A stretch of DNA of 64,000 nt from Cryobacterium inferilacus (lineage in GTDB: Bacteria > Actinomycetota > Actinomycetes > Actinomycetales > Microbacteriaceae). The position numbers were made by a program, and so were the translations under genes. Position 1 is the first letter of the stretch; each line of letters opens with the position of its first letter. Of the stretch, positions 1 through 4,201 are shown piece after piece. The notes under the pieces are model-generated. The model was not told the DNA's origin. It saw only the letters and a list, made by a program, of their open reading frames with translations, and searched no databases. Location of the stretch: assembly GCF_019599185.1 (NCBI RefSeq), contig NZ_JAIEUL010000005.1, forward strand, positions 1-64,000, in the 5' to 3' direction.

Positions 1-246
1 ACTCCTCGATCGGGCATGTCACGCCAGTGGAGTTCGAGATGCAATACTCGTCACAGGCCGCTGAGATCCAACTCGCCCGTGTCCACTCTCCGGGGTCAAG
101 GCCAATCCTCTTCTCCGAGTTGTACGAAGCCGAGAAGTAATTCCACGACCAGGCCACGCCTGACACGTCAGAGGGTCGATCGCCAATTGATACAGACCAT
201 AGCGGGCCAGCTGAATTACACGATGGTGGCCTTGAGACTCTCAAAG

Positions 247-2367
247 TCAGCTGTTGGGATCCTGCGGCAGCGATGTCTCCATGGCGTTCGCCAGCGCTCG
301 CAAGCGTGAAGCTGCCGCGCTCACGTCACCGAGTGCGTATGTCGAGAACTTGACGTCGTCATGCTTGTGCATTTCTCGAATTGCTTCAGGGGCCGTGCGC
401 GCCACGTGCGAGAGCGCGTTGAGGACCTCTTCAAGGGTGGGATGAAGATCTGATTTTCTTCCGTCCCGAGACATGTCGCGGGCCGTTATCGAGTCGCCCG
501 TCTCCCTCTGTTCGTTGACGAGCTGAGACACCGCAAACGAAACGACAGAGAGTTCTCGCTGTCGCTGCTCGATTGCATGGGCAAGTTCGTCAAGTCCACC
601 GGGAACCTTGAAAAGGAGACCTGTCGTTTGCGGGCTCAAACCCAGCTCGACGGCAGCCTCAGTGATCTCTCCCAACCGCTGGGCGTCCACAAGCGCCCAA
701 CTTCTCTTGGCAGCCATGTTCTTGATAGTCTCGCCAGCGAATGATGGTCCTACGACGGCCGCGTAATTGGCCCGATTTTGGCTCAGGTGGGTCTCTAGCG
801 CCACGTCACTGATATCGGTATGGGTCACTTGGCCGTTTGATCGAGACTTAACTTCCACAATGGCAACCAGTTCATCGCCTGCCTGGTTCCGCCAGCTCAC
901 AACAACATCGGTATCACCCGATCCACTGATTGTTCTCGCATGGAACCCCATCGTGAGAAATGCGTCACGGACCGCAATCTCAAACGCCTTCCCTGAACCG
1001 AGACTCTGAGCGTGCGGCGCTTTTGAGAGTGTCACAAGTTGATCGGTGCGAGAATTCAGATCCGCGAGATCTCTCTGAGTTTGTTCGACCAACAGGACCT
1101 GTTCGGGGTCGTCTGTAGTCGGAGCTGAGGCGAGTGGCAACTCCTCAAGGAACGCTAGTCCGAGCGGGGTTGCCCGAAGGCTCCCATATCGCGGTTGCTC
1201 GACCAAGCCAACGTCTTCGAGAAATGATGCGATCCACCTGCTCTTGTCGACATTGAGACCGTACTTCGCCGATTCTAGATACATGTCGGCACGGGTGACG
1301 CCAGGCTTCACCGTACGAATCATTTCGCCAACAAAACGCATATTGCAATGGAGTATTCGGATGAAGTTGATATCTTCCTCCGATTCGATCCACGATCTAG
1401 CGGGAGTCGTGGCCTGATAAACGCCGAGTCCTATCTCGTGGAGGAGGCCGGACGCACGGAGAAAAGGCATCATCGAATCGACACTGCTGCGTTGCAGCGA
1501 GAAGGTGTCGGCGATAAAGCCAAGAAGCTCTTCGCGATCAGTCGGATCGAGTGCCGCGTTTACGATCGTTCTCAGGTTTTCAACTTTGTTGGGACTTGCC
1601 GCTGGGCTTGGCACCCAAATGTTGTAGGTACTCCGAGCCTCATGGAGATCATTGGTAGTCGAGAGTTGGCTGAGGAGAACCCCAATCTCCGGCGGTGCCT
1701 CGCTGAAGTCACGCACAGCAGTTGGACTCGTCACTAAGGCTTCCGGGCTAACGCTCACACAGCGGGAAAGGAGTGCCTCTCCAACTTCGGTCGTTTTCCA
1801 ACGCCGGCCACCGGCGCCTTCAACTAGTCCCAGTGCGTCGAGCCAATCGATACGATCACGAGTACCGCTGAGACTGGTCCAACCTGTTTCGTACAGACCG
1901 CGAAGATGGCTGTCGAGGTCCTCCACAGTGGAGGGCGCGTTAGAAACGAACGCGAGCGATTCCACAAAGAGCCTAAAACGGCTTGCTAAGGCGGCCCCTA
2001 ACGCTTCAGGCACAGGACTCGTCCGAAAATTGTGACCGGACGGAGTTAGATCGAGTCCGCCCCGCGCAGCTTGTGCGAAACCTATGCTCTTGAGAAAACT
2101 TCCGTATTCGCGCCATGTTGACGTCACTGCCGAGGGAGCCGCACCCACCTTGCGTGTCGCGACATCAAAAAACTCCGCAGGCACATCGGGTCTTGAATCC
2201 AGGACTTGCGCTTTGCCGGCTGCGATCTGCTCAACGAGTTCGACGACTAGTGCAAACCACACTCGCTTGCCCCCACGTAGCGAAGGCAGAGAGTTCGTTT
2301 GTCTCCGCCACAGCGCCCTCTGCTCGGCCATCTCTTGCGACGGGTCAGTTACGGTTGTAGACGCCAT
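247..2367 (-). CDS. Large PD-(D/E)XK nuclease with repeated winged-helix-like modules
   Basis: The protein is about 706 residues from the ATG at 2367; a TTG further upstream (2499) would add 44 residues. The C-terminal part has a restriction-endonuclease-like core: FE at about 462-463, a GDTD motif with D487, and the EVK motif with E505 and K507, matching the E...D...ExK pattern of Mrr-type and related PD-(D/E)XK nucleases. The first 410 residues contain four similar segments at about 89-110, 175-199, 301-326 and 381-408, each a hydrophobic 'FL..GL' helix followed by a short hairpin and a 'T..G' turn, which looks like tandem winged helices. It is cargo of the tRNA-Gln element and has lower GC than the core genes. 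A defence or element-maintenance role is inferred; the substrate is unknown. Confidence 0.75.
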   Translation of the reverse strand: MASTTVTDPSQEMAEQRALWRRQTNSLPSLRGGKRVWFALVVELVEQIAAGKAQVLDSRPDVPAEFFDVATRKVGAAPSAVTSTWREYGSFLKSIGFAQAARGGLDLTPSGHNFRTSPVPEALGAALASRFRLFVESLAFVSNAPSTVEDLDSHLRGLYETGWTSLSGTRDRIDWLDALGLVEGAGGRRWKTTEVGEALLSRCVSVSPEALVTSPTAVRDFSEAPPEIGVLLSQLSTTNDLHEARSTYNIWVPSPAASPNKVENLRTIVNAALDPTDREELLGFIADTFSLQRSSVDSMMPFLRASGLLHEIGLGVYQATTPARSWIESEEDINFIRILHCNMRFVGEMIRTVKPGVTRADMYLESAKYGLNVDKSRWIASFLEDVGLVEQPRYGSLRATPLGLAFLEELPLASAPTTDDPEQVLLVEQTQRDLADLNSRTDQLVTLSKAPHAQSLGSGKAFEIAVRDAFLTMGFHARTISGSGDTDVVVSWRNQAGDELVAIVEVKSRSNGQVTHTDISDVALETHLSQNRANYAAVVGPSFAGETIKNMAAKRSWALVDAQRLGEITEAAVELGLSPQTTGLLFKVPGGLDELAHAIEQRQRELSVVSFAVSQLVNEQRETGDSITARDMSRDGRKSDLHPTLEEVLNALSHVARTAPEAIREMHKHDDVKFSTYALGDVSAAASRLRALANAMETSLPQDPNS

Positions 2368-2540: not shown

Positions 2541-3746
2541 TCAGCCACCCAGCACGTCATCAAGAATCTCTGCGGTCACGATGTCTACCTGGTCAGCTGT
2601 GACCACGTAGCTGTTTCGCGTGGTTTGCTCGTTCGCGTGGCCTAGGAGTCGAGACGCCAAGGTGATACCTGCCGCACGCTCGACGAGTGTCGCGGCCGTA
2701 CGTCGGTAGATGTGGGTGGTGTACTCGTCGACGTCGACTCCCATCTTCACCAGCTGCGCGCGCTCGTCGGCAATGAATGAGCGCAGCAGGCGCTCATAGT
2801 TACTGACGCTGAGTGCACGGCCGGTCTTAGTTGGGAATAGTGAAGCATCCGGGTCTGGTTCAGCGAGTGCCAGCCGTCGGCGCACAGCGGCTGCCGCCAT
2901 CGATGGCAGGGCGATGCTGCGTCGCTGTCGGGAGCGCTTGGGTGTGTCCTTCCGGTGGATTCCTTCAGCTTTTGTGCTGACGATGGTGCCGTTGACGACG
3001 AGGGTTGGTGGTCGGGTTGTCATGTCCACGTCGCAGCGGCGCAGGCCGAGGCATTCTCCGATTCGGATTGAGGTGCCCAGCATGATTTCCATGCCGTCGA
3101 TCAGAATGCGGTAGTTGGGTCTGGGACCGTCCGCGCGCGTGACTCGCCAATCCTGCATGAGCTCACGAATGCCGTTGAGTTGCTCCGTGGTGAGCGTGGA
3201 CTCCTTCTTCGGGGCTGTCGGCAGACGCTGCACGTCACGCACCGGGTTGCTTGGCAGCGCGTCGTCGCGGACGGCGTAGCCGCAGATGAGGCTCAGCACG
3301 GCGCGGGCGTGGCGTGCTTTGGAGATGGATTCTTCCTCGAGTATTTTTTGGAGGATGCGGTCACACCGACCGACAGTGAGTCGCTCGAGCTTGATCCCTC
3401 CGCAGCGGGGCAAAATGATGAGGCGCGCGGTTGTCTCATACGATTCGTACGTGGAATACGTCAGGCTGCCCGTCTTCGCGCGGGCGGCTATTTGAGAGAG
3501 CCAGAGTTCCACCACTTGGTTAACGGTGTTCTTGGACGAGAGAGCGCCGGTGCCGCCGGTACCGATCACCGCTGCCTGCCGCCGAACGTCTGCGCGCGCG
3601 TTCTCGTCAGTGTGAGCAACCGCGGACAGACGATGCAGGACTCCGCCGTCGTCTCGGAGGGAAGCGCGGGCTCGGTACCGGCCGTTTGGCAGGACTCCCA
3701 CAGTTATGGTGCCCAGCACGCCGGCAGCGATCTGTGGCCTAGCCAT
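2541..3746 (-). CDS. int: Tyrosine-type site-specific recombinase (integrase)
   Basis: This is a phage-type integrase of about 401 residues that would catalyse integration and excision of the element at the tRNA-Gln gene. The tyrosine-recombinase residues are visible: R228 in SIRIGE, the H345-x-x-R348 pair in HIYRR, H370 in LLGH and the nucleophile Y380 in NSY. The N-terminal part resembles the arm-binding and core-binding (SAM-like) domains. The ATG at 3746 was chosen because the protein family begins near there and because it overlaps the stop of the excisionase-like gene by 8 bp, suggesting translational coupling. A longer open frame to 3890 would run through that gene and is not credible. 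Confidence 0.92.
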   Translation of the reverse strand: MARPQIAAGVLGTITVGVLPNGRYRARASLRDDGGVLHRLSAVAHTDENARADVRRQAAVIGTGGTGALSSKNTVNQVVELWLSQIAARAKTGSLTYSTYESYETTARLIILPRCGGIKLERLTVGRCDRILQKILEEESISKARHARAVLSLICGYAVRDDALPSNPVRDVQRLPTAPKKESTLTTEQLNGIRELMQDWRVTRADGPRPNYRILIDGMEIMLGTSIRIGECLGLRRCDVDMTTRPPTLVVNGTIVSTKAEGIHRKDTPKRSRQRRSIALPSMAAAAVRRRLALAEPDPDASLFPTKTGRALSVSNYERLLRSFIADERAQLVKMGVDVDEYTTHIYRRTAATLVERAAGITLASRLLGHANEQTTRNSYVVTADQVDIVTAEILDDVLGG

Positions 3747-3933
3747 GCCGGTGCTCCTGAGCCCAGGCGAGCACGTCCTGAACGTCGTAGCGTACGTGCC
3801 GGCCGAGCTTGAGGAACGGCGGCCCCGTGTGGGTGAGGCGCCAGTCTTCCAATGTGCGCTCGGGTAGCCGGAGCATTTCGGCGAGTTCACGCTGGGTGAG
3901 AAACGTCGGAGTGATCTGTGTCGTCGCGTCCAT
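3739..3933 (-). CDS. xis: Excisionase-like MerR/HTH_17 DNA-binding protein
   Basis: This small protein of about 64 residues carries a helix-turn-helix of the excisionase type: a TQRELAEML recognition region, PERTLEDWR, then a GRHVRYDVQDVLAW wing. Proteins of this class bind near attachment sites and favour excision. It is encoded directly upstream of the integrase and overlaps its start by 8 bp. The start at 3933 (ATG) gives the normal family length; the open frame continues further upstream but without family similarity. It is the first gene after the tRNA-Gln 3' end, and repeated sequence motifs lie in its upstream gap. Confidence 0.85.
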   Translation of the reverse strand: MDATTQITPTFLTQRELAEMLRLPERTLEDWRLTHTGPPFLKLGRHVRYDVQDVLAWAQEHRHG

Positions 3934-4009
3934 ACCCAGAAGGTGTGCGGGGCCTTTCGTGACTGTTCCGACTATGCCGGGACGGGTCCGTATCAGTCCG
4001 GGCGATAAG

Positions 4010-4058
4010 TGGTCACAGTGACCCTGCAATGGGGTTTCTGGTCCATTTCTGGTCACAG
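4010..4058. promoter_or_regulatory. Repeated TGGTCACAG motifs next to the attachment site
   Basis: TGGTCACAG occurs at 4010-4018 and again at 4050-4058, exactly 40 bp apart, with a partial copy TGGTC at 4039-4043. The first copy is part of a perfect palindrome, GGTCACAGTGACC, at 4011-4023. They lie between the excisionase-like start and the tRNA 3' end. Arm-type sites for the integrase or excisionase, or an operator for the int operon, are the obvious possibilities; the role is inferred. Confidence 0.45.
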
Positions 4059-4129
4059 CGGCCAATTTGGGCCTGATCGGGAGGACGGGCGATGGGCTGT
4101 TTCGCCGCGGAATCCTGCGCCTGTTACTG

Positions 4130-4201
4130 CTGGGGTACCTGGACTCGAACCAAGAACAAATGAACCAGAATCATCCGTGTTGCCAATTACACCATACCCC
4201 A
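4130..4201 (-). tRNA. trnQ: tRNA-Gln (anticodon CTG)
   Basis: The minus strand folds as a complete 72-nt tRNA. The acceptor arm pairs TGGGGTA (5' end at 4201) with TACCCCA, the anticodon stem is GATGA/TCATT with loop TTCTGGT, and the T-arm contains GGTTCGAGTCC. The anticodon CTG reads CAG codons. The CCA end is not encoded (GCA follows). The gene borders an integrative element on its 3' side and lies close to gltX. In bacteria lacking glutaminyl-tRNA synthetase, GltX mischarges this tRNA for correction by GatCAB. Confidence 0.97.

Follow-up and report, generated by a model that had tools for sequence, protein, structure and literature searches.

A winged-helix nuclease of the Mrr type beside an integrase at a tRNA-Gln gene in Cryobacterium inferilacus, a candidate stand-alone restriction enzyme

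We analyzed bases 1–64000 (the window) of contig 55 (210658 bases) from the 4.02 Mb draft genome of Cryobacterium inferilacus. Near the contig start lies a gene for a 706-residue protein that joins a head of four predicted winged-helix (wH) units to an Mrr-type nuclease domain, and that is almost certainly a DNA-binding nuclease. Beside it are genes for a tyrosine integrase and an excisionase-type helix-turn-helix (HTH) protein, and a tRNA-Gln gene (Table 1). The open reading frame (ORF) of the nuclease has its ATG at 2367 and its stop ends at 247; a TTG start could extend it to 2499, and the relatives favor the ATG. Promoter-like hexamers on the minus strand at 2374–2403, ending 7 bp ahead of the ATG, would permit a leaderless mRNA; their count equals the chance expectation, and we rejected them as a real signal. 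The nuclease gene is separated from the integrase gene by 173 bp, and its guanine-plus-cytosine (GC) content is 0.567, whereas the lowest value in 116 segments of 2.1 kb from 4201–64000 was 0.648. An earlier note on this DNA had taken the gene for mobile, horizontally acquired cargo at tRNA-Gln, and the GC content and the adjoining integrase and excisionase agree with that.

Table 1. Features of the nuclease gene and of the tRNA-Gln element in the window
Feature	Position	Strand	Basis
Winged-helix/Mrr-type nuclease gene, 706 residues	247..2367	-	ORF call, Mrr_cat match, full-length relatives
wH1, residues 30–116, first unit of first wH pair (predicted)	2020..2280	-	AlphaFold2 secondary structure
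wH2, residues 118–210, second unit of first wH pair (predicted)	1738..2016	-	AlphaFold2 model, hhalign
wH3, residues 255–330, first unit of second wH pair (predicted)	1378..1605	-	AlphaFold2, hhalign
wH4, residues 331–412, second unit of second wH pair (predicted)	1132..1377	-	AlphaFold2 (low pLDDT), hhalign, sub-threshold Mrr_N
Mrr_cat PD-(D/E)XK nuclease domain, residues 440–580	628..1050	-	Pfam PF04471, predicted models
E463, conserved glutamate of first nuclease helix	979..981	-	Invariant in 11/11 A2 rows
D487 of G-x-T-D motif	907..909	-	Invariant in 11/11 A2 rows
E505-V506-K507, catalytic (D/E)-x-K	847..855	-	E/D at 505 and K at 507 in 11/11 A2 rows
C-terminal unit, residues 581–706: long helix 591–622 and winged-helix-like end	250..627	-	Predicted secondary structure
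Tyrosine integrase of the element	2541..3746	-	Pfam Phage_integrase, 46.7 bits; phrog_1, E 4e-42
Excisionase-type HTH_17 protein	3739..3933	-	HTH_17, 42.7 bits; TIGR01764 below its cut-off
tRNA-Gln(CTG), integration target	4129..4201	-	tRNA search
Shared attachment sequence (tRNA-Gln 3′ end and its edge)	4128..4163	.	Identical on contig C12, near-identical on C15

The nuclease assignment comes from Mrr_cat (PF04471), which matched residues 458–567 with 28.2 bits (gathering cut-off 21) and places the protein in the Mrr_cat superfamily. Alignment A2, with 11 rows of close and distant relatives, was the source of the profiles used below, and eight of its 11 members matched Mrr_cat at E ≤ 1. The PD-(D/E)XK core with an EVK motif, proposed earlier from the sequence, is found intact, with E505 and K507 as claimed. 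Searches of Pfam, PADLOC, NCBIfam and PHROGs gave nothing but Mrr_cat above cut-off, so that a housekeeping identity was rejected, as the earlier note had expected; no motor domain was matched. Pfam found no SRA, EVE or other recognized modification-sensing domain in the 706-residue protein (EVE is present in relatives L036 and L037), and Mrr_N scored 16.5 bits at residues 365–408, below its cut-off of 29.5. No PADLOC model of any known defense system matched it. The profile search suggested in that note upheld the Mrr nuclease and yielded neither Mrr_N above cut-off nor a PADLOC defense model. With NCBIfam the 11 A2 members gave weak matches only, which we judged wH-like or unrelated.

The whole protein was modeled with AlphaFold2 from a 9-row alignment (mean predicted local distance difference test, pLDDT, 66.7; predicted template modeling score, pTM, 0.38). 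The model contains helix-helix-helix-strand-strand-helix units at about 34–116, 120–202, 261–329 and 332–407, followed by an alpha/beta nuclease at 440–580, so that both the winged helices and the nuclease fold are predicted. Block pLDDT was about 60–81 in wH3 and about 38–58 in wH4, the least certain unit, which for this reason rests mainly on homology. Pfam HTH_45 was above cut-off in relative L011 at the place that matches wH3. Profile comparison with hhalign aligned wH1-2 with wH3-4 in the same order over 152 columns (99.55%, E 1.9e-23). Among single units the values were 99.4% for wH2/wH4, 97.3% for wH3/wH4 and 96.6% for wH2/wH3, and wH1 was weaker against single units (71%–87%, 31–37 columns); comparisons of the wH segments with the nuclease or C-terminal segments stayed under 6%. 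Because the two halves of the head align above chance, the four units are most simply read, from their profiles, as two copies of one wH pair. The four tandem winged-helix-like modules described earlier (residues 30–412) are therefore supported by model and repeat alike, and the repetition is real; what had been taken for four similar modules is a duplicated pair, with a further predicted wH-like unit at the C-terminus. The four-module result is circular for the 11 A2 rows. Five rows outside A2 (L002, L004, L006, L007, L008) also show all four units, and these are close relatives of A2 rows. L038 and L043 were left out of the comparison, as a wrong frame had been taken for L038 and perhaps for L043.

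Residues 432–706 were also modeled separately (pLDDT 84.3, pTM 0.78), giving the nuclease, the long helix 591–622 and a wH-like end. With this model as query, Foldseek returned weak matches to Fur, MepR, RTP and PadR (E 0.05–0.2). The C-terminal unit had no detectable sequence homology to the four wH units (hhalign, at most 3%), and we therefore call it wH-like only.

Against the Protein Data Bank (PDB), the whole model had six matches at E ≤ 0.001, namely FokI (E 4.6e-8) and five chains of Nt.BspD6I (3e-5 to 2e-4). The superpositions are poor (template modeling score, TM, 0.18–0.21), the model being only moderately confident and the relative positions of its domains unreliable. The nuclease half had no PDB match at E ≤ 0.001; its best was AspBHI (E 2.9e-3, TM 0.27–0.36), and MspJI ranked fourth (E 0.016). 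Among viral predicted structures the top match was a 187-residue protein labeled FokI (E 1.2e-5). Sequence matches to solved structures were discarded (best E 1.2, 0.49, 0.05 and 0.033), none being a restriction enzyme.

A scan of genome contigs gave 37 candidate stretches, among which eight loci encode a full-length relative. All eight come from other Actinomycetota, namely Subtercola, Saccharopolyspora, Micromonospora (three), Psychromicrobium, Amycolatopsis and a Candidatus Olsenella metagenome-assembled genome, and share 39%–59% identity with the 706-residue query (alignment A1). Six plasmid records held a match: in Gordonia, Priestia and Staphylococcus hominis the match spans 80% of the query or more (20%–26% identity), in two from Staphylococcus saprophyticus 69%, and in Haloarcula only 20%. 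In existing gene tables the relatives from Priestia and Staphylococcus are named "restriction endonuclease" and that from Gordonia "hypothetical protein." With these names in use, Mrr_cat above cut-off and FokI as best match in layout, the architecture is not as unrecognizable as the earlier note had held. Among the open-licence PubMed Central papers listed we recognized no description of this four-wH nuclease family. Within 100 related genomes the nuclease occurs only in its own, and the other 56 of the same genus had no match; at class level it is found in five of 394 genomes, its own included, one of the five being partial. A broader profile found it in 16 of 396 genomes of the phylum (nearly complete in its own genome and one other, split in two in three, and matched by a single stretch in 11). 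A phage origin was rejected, as no relative turned up in phage records or in four viral-contig scans. Matches of relatives to LmuC, AbiEi, ZorD and CARF were likewise set aside and attributed to shared wH or nuclease folds. Relative L015 carries an added C-terminal Lsr2 DNA-binding domain (residues 726–757, 34.1 bits, cut-off 26.9).

The wH pair occurs in other company as well. Domain scans of seven proteins showed that the phylum-level relatives L036 (621 residues) and L037 (630 residues) have EVE at the N-terminus (28.9 and 37.7 bits, cut-off 23), where the first wH pair would be, and then a single wH pair, the nuclease and the C-terminal unit. L040 ends in one wH pair, placed after HARE-HTH and Mrr_cat, and the pair seems to travel as a module. 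In L039 and L042 an HSP90-like ATPase (HATPase_c_3, 25.3 and 25.4 bits, cut-off 25) is fused to a related nuclease, which our own nuclease model scored at about 44 bits; Mrr_cat was below cut-off in L042 and unlisted in L039, and the C-terminal unit of L039 was weakly matched. The first wH copy opens with a Gly-Gly segment, seen by eye as "LPGG" in L009, L010, L016, L037 and L040. The 706-residue protein thus has two copies of the pair, L036 and L037 each have one after EVE, and L040 has one C-terminal to a HARE-Mrr nuclease. We tentatively suggest that it might be a portable reader of modified DNA, interchangeable with EVE. Fusions of EVE to PD(D/E)XK nucleases have been interpreted as putative type IV enzymes in the part of that work consulted, whose main text does not contain the words "winged," "wHTH," "Mrr" or "FokI" (PMC7641849).

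Neighboring genes were surveyed with PADLOC and Pfam for ten selected proteins each, with plasmid annotations, and by reading for the remaining ORFs. L005 adjoins a DUF4297-HerA pair and a type I restriction R subunit (1463 bits); near L003 are an integrase and, at 4.6–6.7 kb, a type II nuclease with its methylase; L009 has PDC-S01, PDC-S15 and YafQ; and L011 has ABC-3C- and AbiH-labeled genes and an integrase. Defense-type neighbors were therefore seen in four of the 11 relatives with long flanks (L003–L013). An integrase, transposon or plasmid setting was found for the window, L003 and L010–L013 (L010 sits after Tn7-like genes), and by reading only for L014; at the three Micromonospora loci and in Amycolatopsis no mobile gene was recognized. 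The earlier proposal of a defense gene keeps these neighbors in its favor and has no PADLOC match; an anti-phage action is suggested by context only. A stand-alone role in defense or exclusion appears probable to us.

Linked methylases were sought by a crude motif scan of ORFs of at least 150 residues, which covered the loci of 15 relatives, four of these loci being shorter than 5 kb, and the window up to 12 kb. No linked cognate methylase was found there; the single methylase detected, that of L003, neighbors a type II enzyme of its own at a distance of 5.4 kb from the nuclease. This agrees with the earlier description of a single-gene candidate, and the gene stands alone as a type IV enzyme would, lacking the linked methylase of a FokI-type system. 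Modification-specific wH fusions should, by reasoning in the part of PMC11037411 consulted, be stand-alone, and others should have a methylase nearby. The alternative that the protein is a type IIS enzyme of the true FokI kind, its methylase encoded elsewhere in the genome or lost, draws on FokI and Nt.BspD6I as top structure matches and on one N6_N4 and one C5 methylase found on other contigs of the own genome, so that a distant partner is possible. We nevertheless consider it improbable. Apart from the methylase of L003 none is linked in the 15 loci, and a search of 12 genomes or records for three methylase families found D12 in none, N6_N4 in seven (six over cut-off) and C5 in five, so that none of the three classes follows the nuclease; four of the 12 are plasmids only. 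The FokI cleavage-domain profile did not match the 706-residue protein and reached 12.9 bits (cut-off 25) in L010, and Pfam FokI_cleav_dom appeared in one of the 11 A2 members, below threshold (E 0.078).

At the element itself, the integrase and excisionase ORFs run from 2541 to 3890 and from 3739 to 4065, and we chose 3746 and 3933 as the likely starts. A PADLOC mad1 match of the excisionase was judged a general HTH_17 resemblance. The end pattern of tRNA-Gln was present in 37 of 57 genomes of the genus. Leaving aside the own genome, we inspected the junction in nine of the remaining 36. Four of these (L049, L050, L053, L054) have an element-side end sequence nearly as in the window; L051 and L058 have a terminator-like flank, like the far junction on contig C15 in L051 (83% over 42 bases) and, by eye, in L058; L052, L055 and L056 have some other flank. 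Four sister loci were fetched (L059–L062). Other cargo accompanies what reads as an integrase in L061 and L062; L059 retains an excisionase-type ORF, and neither gene was recognized in L060. Since similar sister modules carry other cargo, the nuclease is exchangeable cargo, and tRNA-Gln looks like an integration hotspot of the genus, with similar excisionase-integrase modules and differing cargo. The cargo of L062 includes a TIR_2 protein (35.4 bits, cut-off 28), and that of L061 an apparent metal-transporting ATPase, by reading.

That the nuclease serves the mobile element itself, for example by keeping rival elements out or helping it to transfer, and not phage defense, would suit its place beside the integrase and excisionase and the position of several relatives near an integrase or Tn7-like genes or on plasmids. 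We hold this to be quite unlikely. Sister genomes G018 and G041 have a similar integrase (by reading) at the same tRNA without the nuclease, which is therefore dispensable to such elements, and the Micromonospora and Amycolatopsis loci lack a recognized mobile gene. In the own genome the attachment sequence recurs on contig C12 (L023 4266) and at C15:42496 (L024), outside any tRNA gene found, which suggests, from the repeats, a tandem arrangement of two elements; past the C12 junction come genes that read as arsenic-type. The contig opens, about 140 bp past the nuclease stop, with 105 bases that recur at C28:1, at C66:178280 and at the end of C15, so that the remaining part of the element is out of view; this repeat is probably why the contig breaks there, and we take window 1–105 to resemble the end of an IS3-type transposase.

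The reading we favor, to which we give about an even chance, is that of a stand-alone, modification-dependent (type IV-like) restriction nuclease carried as cargo by a tRNA-Gln integrative element. We infer DNA cleavage, action as a dimer, modification dependence and an anti-phage role. On incoming DNA the wH pairs would bind a base modification or a sequence that the host does not have, and would place the nuclease next to the site they occupy, in the manner of FokI or MspJI. With no motor domain matched, cleavage would need no nucleoside triphosphate. A dimer may be held together by the long C-terminal helix and the wH-like unit, and its two active sites would make a double-strand cut. Host DNA would escape for want of the target mark or sequence, and not through protection by a partner methylase. 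AspBHI and MspJI, the nearest folds to the modeled nuclease, are both modification-dependent and count weakly for this reading, and EVE in the place of one wH pair (L036, L037) appears to point to modification sensing.

Several points weigh against modification dependence. FokI reads unmodified DNA. Its match here comes from a model with pLDDT 66.7, at a TM of about 0.2. The 50 matches listed for the nuclease half do not include FokI, and their second and third ranks are unrelated proteins (human OCCM and OtDUB). In L036 and L037 the remaining wH pair has its highest scores with first-pair profiles, which obscures which pair EVE replaces. No defense neighbor was recognized for L004, L006, L007 and L008, and the count of four in 11 stands without a random-gene control. 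The methylases on other contigs of the own genome and the plasmid-only records in the methylase search belong here too. Similarity to Mrr-type nucleases alone does not, in the part of the source consulted, dictate modification preference (PMC3874153). The winged helix of FokI apparently makes no DNA contact, as stated in the consulted part of PMC11037411, so that the wH units here need not be the reader.

An alternative is a stand-alone defense nuclease that is not modification-dependent, which we regard as fairly unlikely. Its four wH units would read a long rare sequence or a phage or plasmid DNA structure, and self would be spared by rarity or by a regulated oligomer state. FokI, the best whole-model match, would then be the closer guide; four wH units in tandem could recognize a long site, no methylase is linked, and of 11 defense systems with putative DNA-binding or DNA-cleaving parts only one has a predicted methylase, in the consulted part of PMC9519451. 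The replacement of one wH pair by EVE and, weakly, the AspBHI and MspJI folds speak for the modification-dependent enzyme instead.

If the protein does cut modified phage DNA, it would add a single-gene type IV family with an uncharacterized reader module, present in Actinomycetota and on plasmids of Bacillota; the PADLOC copy used has no model that matches the 706-residue protein. The exchange of a wH pair with EVE makes it directly testable which folds read base modifications, and a nuclease of FokI layout without need of a methylase might find practical use. If it is active on unmodified DNA, it would still be a clean example of a solitary nuclease that avoids self.

Among known systems, BrxA of BREX has been described as like the heads of FokI and BpuJI, in the part of the source consulted (PMC12839542), and the recognition domain of BpuJI is among the weak structure matches of the whole model (E about 0.07); no sequence relation to either was shown. 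The PADLOC candidate PDC-S02 is approached by relatives: L011 matches PDLC04796 (E 1.9e-8) at residues 273–428, the wH3-wH4 region, and L015 matches PDLC04806 at E 0.034 within its nuclease. The 706-residue protein itself has no match to PDC-S02 at E ≤ 5, and the two models, of 390 and 324 positions, are about half its length. PDC-S02 is named in four papers, and the consulted part of one of them does no more than list it. N6-methyladenine-dependent wH fusions (DpnI, FcyTI and others), compared by description from the consulted part of PMC11037411, likewise combine a winged helix with a nuclease and rarely have methylase neighbors, and differ in having one wH and the order PD-(D/E)XK-wH. Mrr (EcoKMrr) also has a winged helix and Mrr_cat on one chain in a stand-alone gene. 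It has one N-terminal wH and a PD-QxK site, in the consulted part of PMC12707154, in contrast to the four wH units and (E/D)xK site found here: residue 505 is E or D, never Q, in all 11 A2 rows, Mrr_N is below cut-off, and among ten relatives scanned only L010 passes for Mrr_N (31.4 bits). The MspJI family (AspBHI, MspJI) shares the Mrr-type nuclease, AspBHI being weakly nearest to the nuclease-half fold, and differs by its SRA domain, which had no match in the 706-residue protein. The head of FokI has three HTH/winged-helix units. The protein described here departs from FokI and Nt.BspD6I in its four wH units as a duplicated pair, Mrr_cat nuclease, extra C-terminal unit and lack of a linked methylase, and shares with them, in its predicted model, a multi-wH head of tandem HTH or wH units followed by a PD-(D/E)XK domain.
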